This document shows positions 17,152 through 39,046 of a stretch of DNA of 39,162 nt, in pieces. A program made the position numbers and the translations under genes. Source of the DNA: Sphingobium sp. (lineage in GTDB: Bacteria; Pseudomonadota; Alphaproteobacteria; Sphingomonadales; Sphingomonadaceae); assembly GCA_023266575.1 (NCBI GenBank), contig JAHFPV010000023.1, positions 1-39,162 of the forward strand. The letters are read 5' to 3'. Position 1 is the stretch's first letter, and every line of letters starts with the position of its first letter. A model generated the notes under the pieces. It saw nothing but the letters and a program-made list of their open reading frames with translations. It ran no database searches and had not been told where the DNA came from.

Positions 17152-17225
17152 CCGTTCGCTTCGAGCGAAGTCGAGAAGTGAAAAGCGCCGCGCCAGCGTT
17201 TCTCGACTTTGCTCGAAACGAACGG
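17152..17225. repeat. Palindromic repeat, family A copy 1
   Basis: The left arm CCGTTCGCTTCGAGCGAAGT and the right arm ending ACTTTGCTCGAAACGAACGG are inverted, with a variable centre of about 20 bases. Each arm is itself partly self-complementary (TTCGAGCGAA). It lies just after the qor stop and before the terminator. Other copies are at 26315, 28055 and 39003. Confidence 0.9.
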
Positions 17226-20658: not shown

Positions 20659-22743
20659 CTACGGACTAGGCGCTGGCCTCGTCGGCGGCTGGCGCTGCCG
20701 GTCGCGGCCCAGCACATTGTCGATCCATTGCTGGTCGATCCGCTGTGACGACAGCCGGTCCTGGGGGTCTACCTCCAGATCCTGATCATCGCGTGGGTCC
20801 GGGGCGGCCGGGCGGGCGCGCTCGATCGGCAGGCCATTCTCGTCCACCATCATGCCCTCATCCGCGCCATTATCCGGGCTGCCATAATAGGCTTCGGCGT
20901 CGGGCTCCAATTGCCATTCGGGCAGGGTCACTTCCGTCTCGAACGGTTCGACCGGGCGTTTGGCGACCGCTACCTTCATATAGTCGGCAAAGGCGCGGGC
21001 TGGCGCGCGGCCACCCTGCAACACGCCGACTGCGCGGGCGTCGTCGCGGCCCATCCACACGCCGGTGGTGACGCCGCTGGAGAAGCCCAGGAACCAGCCA
21101 TCCTTGTTGCTGCTGGTCGTGCCGGTCTTGCCCGCGACCGGGCGGCCGATCTGCGCCGCCTTGCCGGTACCGGTGCTGACGGCGGTCTGCATCAGGTCGG
21201 TCATCCCCGCCGCGACCCAGGGAGCGACCAGCACGCGGCTGGTATCGTCCTGATGCTCGTAGAGGGTGCGGCCGTCCGCTGTCGTTACCTTGGTAATGCC
21301 ATAGGGCGTCACTGCGATGCCCTTGCGCGCAATCGAGGCAAAGGCGCGGGTCATGTCGATCAGCCGTACGTCCGACGTCCCCAATACCATCGAGGGATGG
21401 GTGTTGATCGGCGTGGTCACACCAAAGCGGCGCGCCATGTCGGCGACGGTCGGGAAGCCGACCTCCACGCCCAGCTTGGCGGCAACCGTGTTGATCGAAT
21501 AGGCAAAGGCGGTGCGGATATCGATGTCGCCGGAAAAGCGCCCCGAACTGTTGCGCGGCTTCCAGCCATTAATATCGACTGGTTCGTCGGTCACGCCGGT
21601 GTCAGGGGTATAGCCCGCCTCCAGCGCCGCCATATAGACAAAGATCTTCCACGCCGATCCGGGCTGGCGGGTCGCGGTGGTCGCGCGGTTATAGTTGGAC
21701 GTCACATAATCGAGACCACCGACCATCGCCCGCACCGCGCCGTCGCGGTCGAGCGACACCAAAGCGCCCTGCGTCCCCGCAGGCACATTGGCCTGGATCG
21801 CTGCGGTCGCCGCCTTCTGCATATTGAGGTCGATGGTGGTATAAACTTCCAGCGGTTCGTTCGGCTCATCCATCAGCACGTCGAGCTGGGGCAGCGCCCA
21901 GTCGGTGAAGTAGCGCACGCTGTTCTGCGGCGGTTCGGGGGCCAGCTTGACCCCCTCTATATCGGCGGCCGCCCGCTCCGACGCGCTGATCACGCCATTG
22001 TCGCGCATCAGGTCCAGCACCACGCCCGCACGGCCAATCGCGGCGTCGGCGTCGGCAGTGGGCGAATAGCTCGACGGCGCTTTCACCAGGCCTGCGATGA
22101 TCGCAGCTTCGGGCAGGTCCAGTGTGGTGGCGGGATGGCCGAAAAATTTGCGGCTGGCGGCGTCGATGCCATAGGCGCCGCCGCCGAAATAGACTTTGTT
22201 CAGATAGAGTTCGAGGATCTGGCGCTTGGAGAATTTGCGCTCCAGCGCCATCGCCAGCACCATTTCCCGCACCTTGCGGCCCCAGCTATAGCTGTTGTTG
22301 AGGAAGATGTTACGTGTCACCTGCTGGGTGATGGTGGACGCACCCTGCCAGCGGCGGCCCTTGCCGCGATTTTCCACCGCAACCCAGGCCGCGCGCGCCA
22401 TGCCGATCGGGTCGACGCCGGGGTGGAGGTAGAAACGCTTGTCCTCGGTCGAGATCATCGCATCGACCATGACCTTGGGAATCTGGTCATAATCCATCCA
22501 GCGCCCGAAACTTGGCCCCAGCGATACGATGACGCTGCCATCGGCGGCGTGGACGCGGATCATCTGGCCATTGGGGGAGGATTTGAGGCTGTCATAGTCG
22601 GGCAGCGACTGCATCGCGATGACGACGGCGATCACCACCGCCAGCAGCCCGGCGACCCCGGCCGCGACGCTGATCTTCAGGCCGCGAACCAGCCATCGCT
22701 TCGCCTTGCCCGGCGTGCCCTTGCTCTTGCCTGATCCTGCCAT
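20659..22743 (-). CDS. Class A penicillin-binding protein (PBP1A type)
   Basis: A 694-residue bifunctional peptidoglycan synthase. A basic cytoplasmic start is followed by one membrane anchor (about residues 22-44). The glycosyltransferase domain has the catalytic E100 in EDKRFYLHPGVD and the motifs GASTITQQ (135-142) and RKVREMVLAMALE. The transpeptidase domain has S363 in SAWK, SIN (416-418) and KTGT (539-542), so both activities look intact. The acidic, Pro-rich C-terminal tail of about 90 residues (after VTLPEWQLEP) is probably disordered in the periplasm. It is shorter than E. coli PBP1A, lacking the OB-like insert. It is read after three hairpins that separate it from msrB. Confidence 0.93.
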   Translation of the reverse strand: MAGSGKSKGTPGKAKRWLVRGLKISVAAGVAGLLAVVIAVVIAMQSLPDYDSLKSSPNGQMIRVHAADGSVIVSLGPSFGRWMDYDQIPKVMVDAMISTEDKRFYLHPGVDPIGMARAAWVAVENRGKGRRWQGASTITQQVTRNIFLNNSYSWGRKVREMVLAMALERKFSKRQILELYLNKVYFGGGAYGIDAASRKFFGHPATTLDLPEAAIIAGLVKAPSSYSPTADADAAIGRAGVVLDLMRDNGVISASERAAADIEGVKLAPEPPQNSVRYFTDWALPQLDVLMDEPNEPLEVYTTIDLNMQKAATAAIQANVPAGTQGALVSLDRDGAVRAMVGGLDYVTSNYNRATTATRQPGSAWKIFVYMAALEAGYTPDTGVTDEPVDINGWKPRNSSGRFSGDIDIRTAFAYSINTVAAKLGVEVGFPTVADMARRFGVTTPINTHPSMVLGTSDVRLIDMTRAFASIARKGIAVTPYGITKVTTADGRTLYEHQDDTSRVLVAPWVAAGMTDLMQTAVSTGTGKAAQIGRPVAGKTGTTSSNKDGWFLGFSSGVTTGVWMGRDDARAVGVLQGGRAPARAFADYMKVAVAKRPVEPFETEVTLPEWQLEPDAEAYYGSPDNGADEGMMVDENGLPIERARPAAPDPRDDQDLEVDPQDRLSSQRIDQQWIDNVLGRDRQRQPPTRPAPSP

Positions 22744-23004: not shown

Positions 23005-23409
23005 CTATGCGTCAGCGTCGCGTGGCTTGAAGTCTAGCGAGGCGCTGTTCATGCAATAGCGCAGGCCATTGACGCCCGGACCATCGGGGAACACATGGCC
23101 CAGATGCCCCTCGCAGGTGGCACAGCGCACTTCGGTGCGGATCATGCCATGGCTGGCGTCGCGAATTTCCTCGACTGCGTCGATGTCCACGGGGGCGGTG
23201 AAGCTGGGCCAGCCCGACCCGCTGTCATATTTTTCTTCCGCGTCGAACAGTTCCGCGCCGCAGCCCGCGCAATAATAGACGCCGTCGGCCTTGTTGCTGT
23301 TCAATTTGCCGGTAAAGGCCCGCTCGGTCCCGCCCTCGCGCAGCACATGATAGCGTTCGGGGGAAAGGCGGTCGCGCCATTCGGCGTCGGTCAGGTTGAG
23401 CTTGTCCAT
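23005..23409 (-). CDS. msrB: Peptide-methionine (R)-S-oxide reductase MsrB
   Basis: A 134-residue enzyme that repairs the R form of methionine sulfoxide in proteins using thioredoxin. The structural zinc is held by Cys47, Cys50 (CAGC) and Cys96, Cys99 (CATC), and the catalytic Cys119 sits in RYCMNSASL. Motifs SGSGWPSF and [11 protein letters not shown] are present. The start at 23409 gives the family's normal length; in-frame codons further upstream overlap the neighbouring gene and are not used. The start lies 31 bp after the oxidoreductase stop on the same strand, so it may be the last gene of the polyketide synthase operon. No signal peptide, so cytosolic. Confidence 0.95.
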
Positions 23410-23440
23410 GGCCGCAATATGGGCGCAGGCAGCGCCCCGA

Positions 23441-24523
23441 TCAAGCGTCCGCGATGCGGGTGAGGCGCATCGCCAGCCGCGCCGCGCCCGGCGTCGCCGC
23501 CAGCAGCCGGAGCAGCCCCGGCTTGCGCCCCAACGCCCGAAACCCCGCCGCCGCGCGCAGCGGCAGCAACGCCCGCCGGGCAAAATCGCGCTGATATCGC
23601 GCCGCGCCCTCGCGCCCCGTCCCCTGCCACTGCGCCACCGCCGCTTCTGCACTGGCCAGCGCGATCCCGATTCCCTCCCCGGCCAGCGACGGAATCACCG
23701 CCGCCTGATCGCCCAGCCGGTAGAGACCCGGCCAGTTGGTCGTCGCGCGCCAGCCATAGGGAACGTCGCCAATCGCATCGACAGGCGCATCGACCGGCAC
23801 ATCCCCCAGCCGGTCGGCCAGCGCGGGCGACTGGTCAGCCAAATGCGCGATCAGCGCCATCGGACGCCCGCCCGCCGCTGCCAGCGCGCTCTTGCGCACC
23901 GCCATGCACAGATTGGCGCTGCCATCCTCCTGCAACAGCAAGCCGACATAGCCGCCATCGACCCAGTGAAGTTCGATCCGGCTGCCGATCAGCCGATGCC
24001 GCGCCGCGCTGGGCGGCAGACGCAGGCGCAAGCCCAGTTCCGGGTCCGCCCTGCCATGGGGCCGCGCCGCGCCGCGCAGGTCATGCTTGCCAGTGGCCAG
24101 GAACAGGTTGTCCCACGCGATCGCGTCGCCATCATCCATGGTGATGGCGGTGGACGACAGCGTCCGCACCGCATGGCCGAGGCGGAAGCTCACCCCCGCA
24201 TCCTGCGCAGCGGCGCGCAGCAGCGTATCGAGCCGGTGGCGCGACAGACCCATACCCGGCGCGGGGAGCGGCAGGACGATCTCCTGCCCGCCCGCAAACA
24301 GCGCCAGCGTGTCGATGCTGTGGCCACCCAGCGCTGCCGGCTCAATCCCCAGCGCCGCGATCTGCGCGACCGTCGCCCAGCTGAGAAACCCGCCACACAG
24401 CGCATCGCCCGGCACGACCTGCCGGTCGATCAGCAACGGTGCCACCCCTGCCCGCGCCAGCCGCATCGCCGCTGCCGCCCCCGCCGGACCTGCGCCGATG
24501 ATTATCGGCACCGGGATACGCAC
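23441..24523 (-). CDS. FAD-dependent oxidoreductase of the polyketide operon
   Basis: A 360-residue flavoprotein related to the geranylgeranyl reductase/aromatic hydroxylase superfamily. The FAD-binding motif GAGPAG is at residues 10-15, a CGGF motif at 43-46 (as in the reductase branch), and the second FAD motif [19 protein letters not shown] lies in the C-terminal half. It overlaps the upstream methyltransferase gene by 22 bp, so the two are translationally linked. In Streptomyces srsABC the third gene encodes a hydroxylase that oxidises the methylated alkylresorcinol to a quinone-type product; an equivalent role is inferred here. A reductase acting on an unsaturated chain is an alternative. 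The substrate cannot be read from sequence. Confidence 0.82.
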
Positions 24524-25176
24524 AGCCGGAAGGGAAAGACGCGCTCAATCCGCGCCTCGCTGATATGCGCCGCGGCCAGCATCGCCCGCCATTCGTCCGC
24601 CACGAAGCTGCGCGCGATCGAGAGTTGCCCGTCCTGCCGCACGATCGGATGGACCCGCAGCAGCCGGGCCAGCAATGGATAGCCATGAAAGGCGAAACCA
24701 TGACGATGCAGGTCGTTGACGAACCAGCCCATGCGCGCCTGATCCTCCATGAAGCGCAGGAACGCCAGCCGTTCCGCATCATCCATATGGTGCGCTACCA
24801 GGCTGGACACGATAATGTCCCATGGTTCATGCGCCAGAGCGGCATAGTCGCCGGTGCGATAGTCGATCGCCATGGCCGGGTCGGTGCGCGCCTGCGCGAC
24901 CGCCTCGCTCCGTGCATTGAGGTCGATGCCGACCAGTTCGCAGGCGATGCCGCGCAGCTTGGCCCAGCGCGCGACCTGCCGCAGCATCCCGCCATCGCCA
25001 TAGCCAACGTCGAGCAGCCGAAAGTGCCCGGTCACTGCGCGATCGAGAAAGCCAAGCGTCGGTCGCGCCGCCAGCGTCACCCGGTTGACCCGGTCGAGAT
25101 CGGCCAGCACCCGCGCATAGACATCCGCAGGCAGGTCGGCTGCGTCCATCTGTTCGTCGGCAAGCGACCGCTTCAT
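24502..25176 (-). CDS. Class I SAM-dependent methyltransferase of the polyketide operon
   Basis: A 224-residue methyltransferase with the SAM-binding motif I LLDVGYGDGG (residues 54-63), the acidic motif II end VGIDLNARS, and WDIIVSSLVAHHMDD as post-motif II. The length and lack of signal or membrane segments suggest a soluble enzyme. Its start overlaps the polyketide synthase stop by four bases (ATGA) and its 3' end overlaps the oxidoreductase start by 22 bp. The likely job is O- or C-methylation of the polyketide product, by analogy with SrsB of Streptomyces; the substrate is inferred only. Confidence 0.85.
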   Translation of the reverse strand: MKRSLADEQMDAADLPADVYARVLADLDRVNRVTLAARPTLGFLDRAVTGHFRLLDVGYGDGGMLRQVARWAKLRGIACELVGIDLNARSEAVAQARTDPAMAIDYRTGDYAALAHEPWDIIVSSLVAHHMDDAERLAFLRFMEDQARMGWFVNDLHRHGFAFHGYPLLARLLRVHPIVRQDGQLSIARSFVADEWRAMLAAAHISEARIERVFPFRLCVSRCR

Positions 25177-26255
25177 GGTGCCTCCCGACGAAAGGTCAGC
25201 CCCTCCGCCGCCAGCCCCGGCCCGAAGGCGAGCGCGATCCCCTGCCCGGTCGCTTTCCCTGCCAATATGCGCGCCAGCACGAACATCAACGTCGCCGACG
25301 ACATATTGCCAAAGGCGCGCAGCACCGCCCGGCTATGCTCCAGCGCATCCGGGGCGAGATCAAGCGCCCGCGCCACCGCGTCGAGGATGGAGCGTCCCCC
25401 GGCATGGACCGCCCACAGATCGACGCTTTCGGCAGGCACCGGCAGCGTCACCGTCCCCGCCAGCGCCTGCGCGATTGCGCCCGGCACTTCGCCCGACAAA
25501 TGCATGGCAAAACCATGATCGCCCAGATCCCAGCGAATGAGGCCTGCCGTATCCGGTACGGTCATGGCAAACGGCTGGCCGAGCGCTATCCCGCCCGGCG
25601 CGGCGCTCACCAAGGCCGCTGCCGCGCCATCGCCAAATTGCAGCATCGCCAGCAACGGCTCGACCCGCGCATCATCCTGCAAATGCAGGCTGCTGAGTTC
25701 CACGCACACCACCAGCACCCGCGCGCCCGGTTCCGACCGCACGATATGCCTGGCGGAGCGCAACGCGACGATCGCCGCATAACAGCCCATATAGCCGACC
25801 ATAAGCCGCTCGACCGAAGGGTTCAGTCCCAGCAGCGTGATCAGCCGCTGGTCGATTCCCGGTGCAGTAAAGCCCGTGCAACTGGCCACCACCAGATGGG
25901 TAATGCCGTCGATGGCAACTTGATCCGCCAATCCCGCCACCGCCCGCGCGGCCAATAGCGGCGCTTCGTCGGCATAGATGGCCATGCGCTGCGCCGTCGT
26001 GGGCCATTGCGCGGCGTAAAAACCGTCCTGCGCCGTTGGCGATTCCAGCACCGACCAGCGATGCTCAATCCCGCTGCGCTGCGCCATGCGCGTGAACAGC
26101 GCCCGCTCTCGCCGGTCGGTGATGCGTCCGCCCGCCCAGTCGATAAAGGCCGGGTGGACATCAGTCATGGGAACAGCGGTGCCGATGGCGTGGATGGTGG
26201 CGGTGGATGAAATGTTGCGCTGCCTTTGTTGCGCGCTGGCACGGTGGCCGGTCAT
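25173..26255 (-). CDS. Type III polyketide synthase
   Basis: A 360-residue chalcone/stilbene-synthase-type enzyme that condenses a starter acyl-CoA with malonyl-CoA units. The catalytic triad is Cys126 (ASCTGFTAPG), His284 (AVHAGGRS) and Asn317 (AFGNMSSATL), and the C-terminal loop AFGPG is at 343-347, so it looks active. The N-terminal HAIGTAVP and GIDQRLITLLGL segments are family-typical. The start at 26255 has only a weak GGA upstream. It is the first gene of an overlapping operon with a methyltransferase and a flavoprotein. The starter unit is unknown: fatty acyl (alkylresorcinols or alkylpyrones) or malonyl (small phenols) are both possible. A long palindromic repeat lies between holA and this gene. 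Confidence 0.93.
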   Translation of the reverse strand: MTGHRASAQQRQRNISSTATIHAIGTAVPMTDVHPAFIDWAGGRITDRRERALFTRMAQRSGIEHRWSVLESPTAQDGFYAAQWPTTAQRMAIYADEAPLLAARAVAGLADQVAIDGITHLVVASCTGFTAPGIDQRLITLLGLNPSVERLMVGYMGCYAAIVALRSARHIVRSEPGARVLVVCVELSSLHLQDDARVEPLLAMLQFGDGAAAALVSAAPGGIALGQPFAMTVPDTAGLIRWDLGDHGFAMHLSGEVPGAIAQALAGTVTLPVPAESVDLWAVHAGGRSILDAVARALDLAPDALEHSRAVLRAFGNMSSATLMFVLARILAGKATGQGIALAFGPGLAAEGLTFRREAP

Positions 26256-26284: not shown

Positions 26285-26399
26285 GTGATCACTTCAGAGT
26301 AAAACCCCCAACCTCCGTTCGTTTCGAGCGAAGTCGAGAAACCCGCGCAACCGTTTCTCGACTTCGCTCGAAACGAACGGATCAAGGTGAAGTCATCAC
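26285..26399. repeat. Palindromic repeat, family A copy 2 with outer arms
   Basis: The inner element (26315-26380) has arms CCGTTCGTTTCGAGCGAAGT and its complement. Outside it are a second pair of arms, GTGATCACTTCA (26285-26296) and TGAAGTCATCAC (26388-26399), complementary at 11 of 12 positions. The whole unit fills the gap between the holA stop and the start of the polyketide synthase operon, and so may carry that operon's upstream region. Confidence 0.88.
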
Positions 26400-26428: not shown

Positions 26429-27454
26429 CTATCGTTCCCGCGCCGCCTGCCGCGCGATCGTCAGCAGTTCGTGCCGCACCAGCAGGTCGCCTGTCCCCCG
26501 GCCCGATCGTGTGGCCCGCTCGGCCTGCGCCAGCCGCTGTATGACGCGGGCGATGCCGGTCGCGTCCCACAGCCGCACCTGCCGCGTCACCACGCCCTTT
26601 TCCTTCCAGAACACCGCCTTGCCCGCCGCCTCGACCGCGCTCTCCAGCCGTCCGCTACTGTCGAAATCGGCGCGGATATTGGCCAGCAGCATGGCGCGGG
26701 TCAGCAGCGGGCGGATGACCGACGCCATGCTGGCGCCAACCTCCGACAGGCTGGTCAGTTCGCGGTGCATGGCTTTCAGGTCACCGCCCAGCACGGCATT
26801 GACCAGCGGCGCAACCTCCGTATCGGGATTGTCGGCCGACAGCGCGTCCAGCGCCTCGGCCGTCGCTTCGCGCGGCCGGTCCGGCGCGGCGTCCAGATAG
26901 AGGATCAGCTTCTCCACCTCGCCGCTCATCAACGCCCGGTCGCCATTGGCCAGATCGACGATCCGCCGCGCCAGTTCGGTCGACAGCCGCAACCCGCCTT
27001 CGCGCGCGATGCCGATGGCGATCTGCTCCGATTCGCGCGCATCGGGCTGGTAGGAGACGAAGGCGAGTGTCGCCTTGTGATCCAGCGCCAGCTTGAGCAG
27101 CTTCGACGTGGCTTTCAGCGCGCCCGCCACCGCGATGACGGGATTGCCCGCCGCCTCCGCCTCCAGCAGCGCGGTCAGCGCGGGCAGCGATTCCTCGCCC
27201 ATGCCATGGACGCGAATCCAGCGCTTGTCGCCAAACATGGAAAAGGATGCGGCTTCATCGGACAGGCGTGCCGGATCGTCGCGCAGGGTCGATCCGTCCA
27301 GGTCGACCCGCTCCGCCCCCGGTCCCATCGCCCGCTCCAGCCGCCGGACCAGCGCCTGGCTGGCCGCTTCGTCCGGGCCATAGAGCAGAATGAAGCGCAG
27401 CGCCGCCGATGGCGCGTCGAGCGCCTTTTCGATCTGGCCGCGATTGGCCTTCAA
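26429..27454 (-). CDS. holA: DNA polymerase III subunit delta
   Basis: A 341-residue clamp-loader delta subunit, which opens the beta sliding clamp for loading. The N-terminal fold is recognisable from ILLYGPDEAASQALVRRLERAMG, the clamp-interacting SFSMFGDKRWIRV region (about 70-82), and the AAA-like PVIAVAGALKATSKLLKLAL. The C-terminal collar helices contain ALMSGEVEKLILYL and the LARAMLLANI-type helix. The length is normal for alphaproteobacteria. It overlaps the lptE stop by four bases, so holA is translated from the leuS-lptE transcript. Confidence 0.93.
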   Translation of the reverse strand: MKANRGQIEKALDAPSAALRFILLYGPDEAASQALVRRLERAMGPGAERVDLDGSTLRDDPARLSDEAASFSMFGDKRWIRVHGMGEESLPALTALLEAEAAGNPVIAVAGALKATSKLLKLALDHKATLAFVSYQPDARESEQIAIGIAREGGLRLSTELARRIVDLANGDRALMSGEVEKLILYLDAAPDRPREATAEALDALSADNPDTEVAPLVNAVLGGDLKAMHRELTSLSEVGASMASVIRPLLTRAMLLANIRADFDSSGRLESAVEAAGKAVFWKEKGVVTRQVRLWDATGIARVIQRLAQAERATRSGRGTGDLLVRHELLTIARQAARER

Positions 27455-28019: not shown

Positions 28020-28145
28020 TAGAGCCTGATGACTATAGGTCAAAATCCAAACATCCGTTCGTTTCGAGCGAAGTCGAGAAACCTGCTCACCACGTTTCTC
28101 GACTTCGCTCGAAACGAACGGATCGAGATAAAGCATCACGCTCTA
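28020..28145. repeat. Palindromic repeat, family A copy 3, reaching into the leuS stop codon
   Basis: The inner element (28055-28121) has near-perfect arms of about 28 bases. The outer arms TAGAGCCTGATG (28020-28031) and CATCACGCTCTA (28134-28145) pair at 11 of 12 positions. The right outer arm contains the leuS stop codon (28143-28145), so the repeat appears to have supplied the end of that gene. It separates leuS from lptE within a presumed operon. Confidence 0.9.
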
Positions 28146-39002: not shown

Positions 39003-39046
39003 CCGTTCGTTTCGAGCGAAGTCGAGAAACCTGCGCGCTGCGTTTC
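39003..39046. repeat. Palindromic repeat, family A copy 4, truncated
   Basis: The left arm CCGTTCGTTTCGAGCGAAGT and the start of the second half (GCGTTTCT) match family A, but the right arm breaks off after that. The last 116 bases of the window contain no gene; a 30-bp palindrome follows at 39088. Confidence 0.8.

Follow-up and report, generated by a model that had tools for sequence, protein, structure and literature searches.

A three-gene operon on the minus strand

Positions 1 to 39,162 of contig JAHFPV010000023.1 from a Sphingobium sp. draft genome of 3.6 Mb (GCA_023266575.1), a stretch of 39,162 nucleotides called the window in the following, contain three genes that encode a type III polyketide synthase (PKS), a methyltransferase (MT) of class I using S-adenosylmethionine (SAM) and an enzyme binding flavin adenine dinucleotide (FAD; Table 1). 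The open reading frames (ORFs) of PKS and MT share 4 bp (25173-25176) and those of MT and FAD enzyme 22 bp (24502-24523). The original prediction for the window had described three overlapping genes with these functions, and the ORF coordinates as well as the Pfam and NCBIfam matches agree with it. The domains Chal_sti_synt_N and Chal_sti_synt_C reach 102.7 and 75.9 bits (Pfam cut-offs 27), which establishes the type III PKS domains, and a single match to the PKS family PF00195 was found in the own genome. Among the named relatives scanned, Sphingobium terrigena EO9 comes closest, with 95% identity in the PKS. As dN/dS against Sphingobium terrigena amounts to 0.12 for the PKS, 0.18 for the MT and 0.17 for the FAD enzyme gene, all three genes are under purifying selection. 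The FAD gene has a G+C content of 72.5% (PKS 66.8%, MT 65.6%, window 64.4%) and diverges faster.

Table 1. Positions of the operon genes and of adjacent features in the window
Feature	Position	Strand	Remarks
type III PKS	25173-26255	minus	360 aa; Chal_sti_synt_N/_C (Pfam), Pks18 alignment
class I SAM methyltransferase (MT), PRK06202-like	24502-25176	minus	224 aa
FAD enzyme, group A monooxygenase/geranylgeranyl-reductase/flavin-halogenase superfamily	23441-24523	minus	360 aa
msrB	23005-23430	minus	Pfam SelR 167 bits
PBP1A-family penicillin-binding protein (PBP)	20659-22743	minus	common neighbour downstream
holA	26429-27454	minus	upstream border of the site in the genus; TIGR01128 108.5 bits, cut-off 80
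palindrome	26314-26381	none	29-nt arms; genome-wide repeat; between holA and operon

Conservation, residence and plasmid copies

The operon is widespread in the family. PKS matches were found in 125 of 199 family genomes, with orthologs of at least 53% identity in 103 (own genome included, two partial) and distant copies of 28-37% identity in 22. The class scan matched 53 of 289 genomes, eight of them at 51% or more, and six of these eight belong to other families. At the level of the phylum there were matches in 31 of 398 genomes; 12 reach 47% or more, and among these 12 G766 alone is from another class. The three scans overlap in some genomes. Within the genus, an ortholog of at least 55% identity is present in 41 of 94 genomes, counting the own one, and four more carry a copy of 31-32% alone. 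For 58 of the 103 orthologs, mostly one per genus, and for two distant copies the regions were fetched with flanks (60 in total). The three genes follow each other as PKS, MT and FAD enzyme on one strand in 55 of the 58 orthologous loci (exceptions L045, L069 and L071), which bears out the three-gene order across sphingomonads, and MT and FAD genes overlap in all 55, given the start codons chosen by script. In 86 further loci (80 named, six from the class scan) the same order was present in 70 and the PBP gene lay downstream in 48. Eight loci outside the family were read at length: five hold the trio in the order of the window, two a PKS gene with a weak FAD match and one a PKS gene alone.

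Is the operon resident at its site? The original prediction had called it resident and not transferred, and over deep time this holds at the msrB-PBP site. Pairwise PKS distances correlate with those of the PBP (r = 0.82), the MT (0.84) and the FAD enzyme (0.73) in 54 rows, window included, with trio, msrB and PBP gene in one stretch (PBP matches below 55% omitted), and none of 500 permutations was as high. Since PKS and PBP distances correlate, the data fit an old vertical descent at this site. Within the genus, however, the claim is not supported. Of 18 non-carriers surveyed out of 49, 17 gave the PBP locus, and in 12 of these 17 the site is empty, with the holA match ending no more than 160 nt from msrB, while holA lies outside the flank in the other five. 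Among 12 surveyed of 40 other carriers, which have more distant copies, holA stands beside msrB in nine, the FAD gene is found there in two and neither in one. Ten of these 12 carriers' loci were read, and nine have PKS and FAD genes in succession with the MT gene inverted, one the order of the window. Seven of the nine inverted-MT copies fall with four more rearranged ones into one clade (11 rows, support 97) apart from that of the window. A member of the genus, G890, has the PKS gene twice on contig C5, at 60 and 64% identity to the PKS of the window; L280 is accompanied by an FAD gene and an inverted MT gene, whereas L279 is a PKS gene alone in the stretch read.

Copies on plasmids also speak against strict residence. 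PKS matches occur in 45 plasmid records and MT matches in 24; of the 40 PKS matches listed of the 45, 24 reach at least 49% and the others 28-40%. It should be noted that several Sphingobium plasmid records are about 1 Mb long and may be second chromosomes. A Roseomonas plasmid copy has a PKS of 52.7% identity, in Methylobacterium a gene for a transporter of the major facilitator superfamily (MFS) overlaps the PKS gene, and on plasmid pSRL1 (139 kb) of Sphingobium indicum the inverted form adjoins a tripartite efflux set. Such a set, consisting of outer-membrane factor, DHA2 MFS transporter and HlyD, in some cases with a MarR regulator, was seen at L284 (10926-15605) and near the rearranged trio also at L174, L262, L264, L265, L266, L267 and L280. 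Of 13 loci with the rearranged trio, seven show genes for outer-membrane factor and DHA2 transporter in the stretch covered. The recurrence of the efflux set near the rearranged trio suggests export of the product or a related compound. The operon is thus old in the family, has been lost and gained within it, and resides on plasmids elsewhere. Since one genus has two forms, one at the holA/msrB site and the other rearranged elsewhere or on a plasmid, it lends itself to comparing how the operon is gained and lost and how it functions.

As to the surroundings in the window, holA, lptE (48.6 bits) and leuS (1005 bits, cut-off 548) lie upstream, while msrB starts 10 bp past the FAD gene and the PBP1A-family gene comes next. 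The neighbours had been given correctly as leuS-lptE-holA and a penicillin-binding protein, but msrB had been overlooked. It is part of the conserved site and probably not of the pathway. The original prediction had also linked the plausibility of a phenolic membrane lipid to the lack of canonical lipopolysaccharide in sphingomonads; the window does carry lptE. A scan for promoters and terminators found 0 and 1, compared with 0.6 and 1.7 in shuffled sequences, and two Rfam matches, both far under their gathering scores, were judged to be chance. In addition to the palindrome upstream of the operon, a second near-perfect one lies at 28053-28123 between lptE and leuS (arms of the two 29-33 nt), with half sites at 17198-17218 and 39010-39030. 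The 21-base core is present 72 times across the genome of 3.6 Mb, in many cases as two copies that face each other, and the reversed control has none; the palindrome is a genome-wide repeat, similar to repetitive extragenic palindromes (REP) or miniature inverted-repeat transposable elements (MITE).

Active site and predicted product

For Pks18, catalysis has been assigned to Cys175, His313 and Asn346 (PMC6274091), and alignment to Pks18 places the catalytic triad of the window's PKS at Cys158, His284 and Asn317. The original prediction had named Cys126, His284 and Asn317. Histidine and asparagine stand, but the nucleophile is Cys158, which aligns with Pks18 Cys175, whereas Cys126 aligns with Ser143 and is a second active-site cysteine. 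On re-alignment the triad is intact in all 150 ortholog rows, and Cys126, Ala131, His191, Trp242 and Met251 are each equally invariant. These rows, 144 different sequences with some genomes represented twice, come from the window and 149 of 158 fetched loci, nine having been omitted because of a stop in the translated match, in some merely because the match overran the gene end. In 35 rows of more distant PKSs, drawn from 40 loci with at least one genome doubled (L091 and L210), the position of Cys126 is Ser, Thr or Ile throughout, Met251 and His191 are replaced in all 35 and Ala131 in 34. DpgA, a 3,5-dihydroxyphenylacetyl-CoA synthase, was rejected as identity of the PKS at 121.7 bits against a curated cut-off of 425.

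The MT exceeds the Pfam cut-offs of both Methyltransf_25 and Methyltransf_11, which makes it a class I methyltransferase. It has no match to ICMT (PF04140), and all 36 members compared matched soluble methyltransferase families. The best NCBIfam match is PRK06202 (126.8 bits, under the cut-off of 243). In the fold ranking, which covers the best 50 of 1000 chains (VIA-align), the aromatic C-methyltransferases NovO and CouO are on top in a tie with others; as their lead is below 1 Z, they were not accepted as sole best fold. The FAD enzyme is over the Pfam cut-offs of Pyr_redox_2 and FAD_binding_3.

What might such an operon produce? A product assignment for it was not seen among the papers that searches of the open-licence literature on sphingomonads and alphaproteobacteria listed. 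An alkylresorcinol was predicted by antiSMASH in Sphingomonas (PMC9611098, text and table of which name different strains), and T3PKS belongs to the most frequent kinds of cluster in a set of 26 new species that includes Sphingomonas (PMC12067966). Gene content, gene order, conservation and the kinship with planctomycetal class-I-MT/FAD/PKS operons are observed facts, and with them in view we lean, with some reserve, towards an alkylresorcinol-type phenolic lipid that is methylated and probably hydroxylated, its chemical steps being inferred. The original prediction of a PKS-MT-flavoenzyme operon, for which it had called a phenolic membrane lipid plausible, finds support here, a phenolic lipid being the most likely product class. 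The PKS would elongate a fatty acyl-CoA or acyl-ACP (acyl carrier protein) starter with, most likely, three malonyl units, and an aldol condensation would then yield the ring of a 5-alkylresorcinol or of an alkylresorcylic acid. The soluble MT would methylate this ring, perhaps at a carbon atom, and hydroxylation by the FAD enzyme may give a hydroquinone that could be oxidised to the quinone.

In ArsB, Trp281 directs the reaction to resorcinol and in ArsC, Gly284 to pyrone, with Met293 nearby (PMC6274091), and the same Trp is reported for the resorcinol formers FtpA, SrsA, PKS10 and PKS11 (PMC5916927). Trp242 and Met251 of the window's PKS are nine residues apart, as are positions 284 and 293 of ArsC, and a fragment search aligned Trp242 with the Trp of Pks11; the link of Trp242 to ArsC is drawn from the Trp-to-Met spacing in PMC6274091 and from this Pks11 alignment. 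Direct alignment to ArsC was discarded, because the match to 3vs9, which is ArsC G284W (PMC6274091), was low-ranked and gave ranges only (query 9-74, chain 276-349; Trp242 at about chain position 285). Trp242 and its spacing to Met251 are compatible with a resorcinol-type ring closure but are no proof of it.

Several observations weigh against this reading of the operon. For the PKS, Trp242 was withdrawn as proof of a resorcinol product since all 35 rows of other, non-orthologous bacterial PKSs also have Trp, so that the residue is not diagnostic. His191 replaces Pks18 Asn208 at the entrance of the acyl tunnel, which makes the starter length uncertain. Furthermore, the reports on Pks11 conflict, as it is an alkylresorcinol former in one (PMC5916927) and, with the same Trp, a maker of methylated alkylpyrones in the other (PMC6274091). 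The latter report would be consistent with a PKS that yields alkyl-alpha-pyrones through lactone release, to be methylated by the MT and oxidised by the FAD enzyme, and so would the finding that, of the solved structures, the alkylpyrone synthase Pks18 matches best over the full length. As Pks18 has Leu266 at the position of Trp242 and alkylresorcinols are the products of trios organised as in planctomycetes (PMC10896814), we regard alkylpyrones as rather unlikely, if worth keeping in mind.

On the side of the accessory enzymes, the FAD enzyme lies under the cut-offs of all 20 NCBIfam families matched, and its top folds are halogenases, which raises the idea that it is a halogenase and the product a halogenated alkylphenol. 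WxWxIP is the motif of flavin-dependent halogenases; in the alignment to CmlS the FAD enzyme does not have it and shows GYxG in its place, which leaves halogenation very unlikely. It could also be imagined that the FAD enzyme works like a geranylgeranyl reductase, with a prenyl or alkyl chain as substrate, as this family is the best NCBIfam match of the window's protein and is matched by all 44 members compared (as is QhpG, a monooxygenase). The score for TIGR02032 of that family is 79.8 bits, however, against a curated cut-off of 158.8, and none of the three genes encodes a prenyltransferase, so that we consider such a reductase distinctly unlikely. Three points from the related loci add to the case against an alkylresorcinol-type lipid. 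Among the 86 further loci five have PKS and FAD genes without an MT gene and three a PKS gene alone, some of them cut by contig or fetch ends. For the operon of the planctomycete Paludisphaera borealis, compared below, tblastn gave no match to the MT, and its PKS is outside the six chosen for expression (PMC10896814). The FAD protein of Deinococcus radiophilus has no real similarity to that of the window, and with this unlikeness the third step of the pathway is not fixed.

Roughly one in two of the sampled sphingomonads has the operon, so that a large environmental family may share a lipid that has yet to be described. Going further, one might picture an old sphingomonad pathway, repeatedly lost and regained, whose product is a methylated alkylhydroquinone serving as membrane redox lipid beside ubiquinone, like the polyketide quinones of mycobacteria and Streptomyces, but relying on a methyltransferase unrelated to theirs and on a new subclass of flavoenzyme; this is a speculative extension to which we give little credence.

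Relation to known PKS systems

A tree of 24 PKSs splits into a side with class I MT and FAD enzyme and a side with ICMT (support 100/100), and the PKSs of the planctomycete Paludisphaera borealis, of Deinococcus and of Paenibacillus are on the side of the window. Cys126, Ala131, His191 and Met251 are common to the planctomycete and Deinococcus PKSs and not to the clade of the ICMT side; the Paenibacillus row sits on a long branch, and both position 131 and position 251 are Leu in it. By sequence comparison the operon is a new member of a known trio of class I MT, FAD enzyme and type III PKS.

The operon of Paludisphaera borealis (L281) is homologous to that of the window in all three proteins, with 33% identity in the MT, 31% in the FAD enzyme and 38% in the PKS. 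Its FAD enzyme shares the stretch GGYVGL..EDGS.N, its PKS has the window's active-site signature except for Ser instead of Thr127, and PRK06202 is the best NCBIfam match of its MT as well (232.4 bits). This MT was found by blastp (E 4e-17) and by profile A5 (E 1.5e-39), profiles A1-A3 being built on 27-28 rows and A4-A6 on 36-44. The two operons differ in gene order, which is MT-FAD-PKS in Paludisphaera, and the identities are low. Among planctomycetal PKS genes 58 of 96 are reported in operons of MT-oxidoreductase-PKS organisation, and expressed planctomycetal PKSs gave C15 and C17 alkylresorcinols (PMC10896814). Co-expression of MT and FAD enzyme of Gimesia maris led to one methylation, probably on carbon, and the natural function in planctomycetes seems unlike that in other producers (PMC10896814). 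Deinococcus radiophilus has the order PKS-MT-FAD with an MT of 31% identity over 175 columns, and its FAD protein is matched best by models of monooxygenases, with scores that stay below the cut-offs. In Paenibacillus each of the three proteins finds a match, and the order is that of the window.

Similar gene sets are known from other bacteria. The cyanobacterial hierridin cluster, compared by description, unites these three functions in the arrangement hidABC or hidC>hidA>hidB, and the latter corresponds to the gene order of the window (PMC8086630). Hierridin B is a methylated hydroquinone (PMC7181126). For HidA, O-methylation of two hydroxyls has been reported (PMC10896814). Acetobacteraceae clusters, likewise compared by description, all contain a methyltransferase and an FAD monooxygenase (PMC8776678).

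A type III PKS gene may also adjoin a methyltransferase gene of another kind. In two of the 22 genomes with distant sphingomonad PKSs, those examined (L090 and L091), an ICMT gene follows (92.6 and 89.9 bits), as in Rhizobium BG4 (L286), where the next gene encodes an MFS transporter. The PKSs of these pairs form the separate clade of the tree (100/100) and their methyltransferase is an ICMT. Sphingomonads hence hold at least two type III PKS systems.

How close is the operon to srsABC of Streptomyces griseus, with which the original prediction had compared it? With srsABC and pkqABC of mycobacteria it shares the order PKS-MT-flavoenzyme and the logic of resorcinol formation, methylation and oxidation (PMC9927152). 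The identity of the system does not hold, as the MT here is of class I and has no match to ICMT, srs being compared by description. SrsB is an ICMT-type methyltransferase, and membership in srsABC was rejected on the type of methyltransferase. If the split between the class-I-MT/FAD trio and the PKS-ICMT pairs holds true on a wider tree, it would be a better rule for genome mining than 'alkylresorcinol, as in srsABC'.
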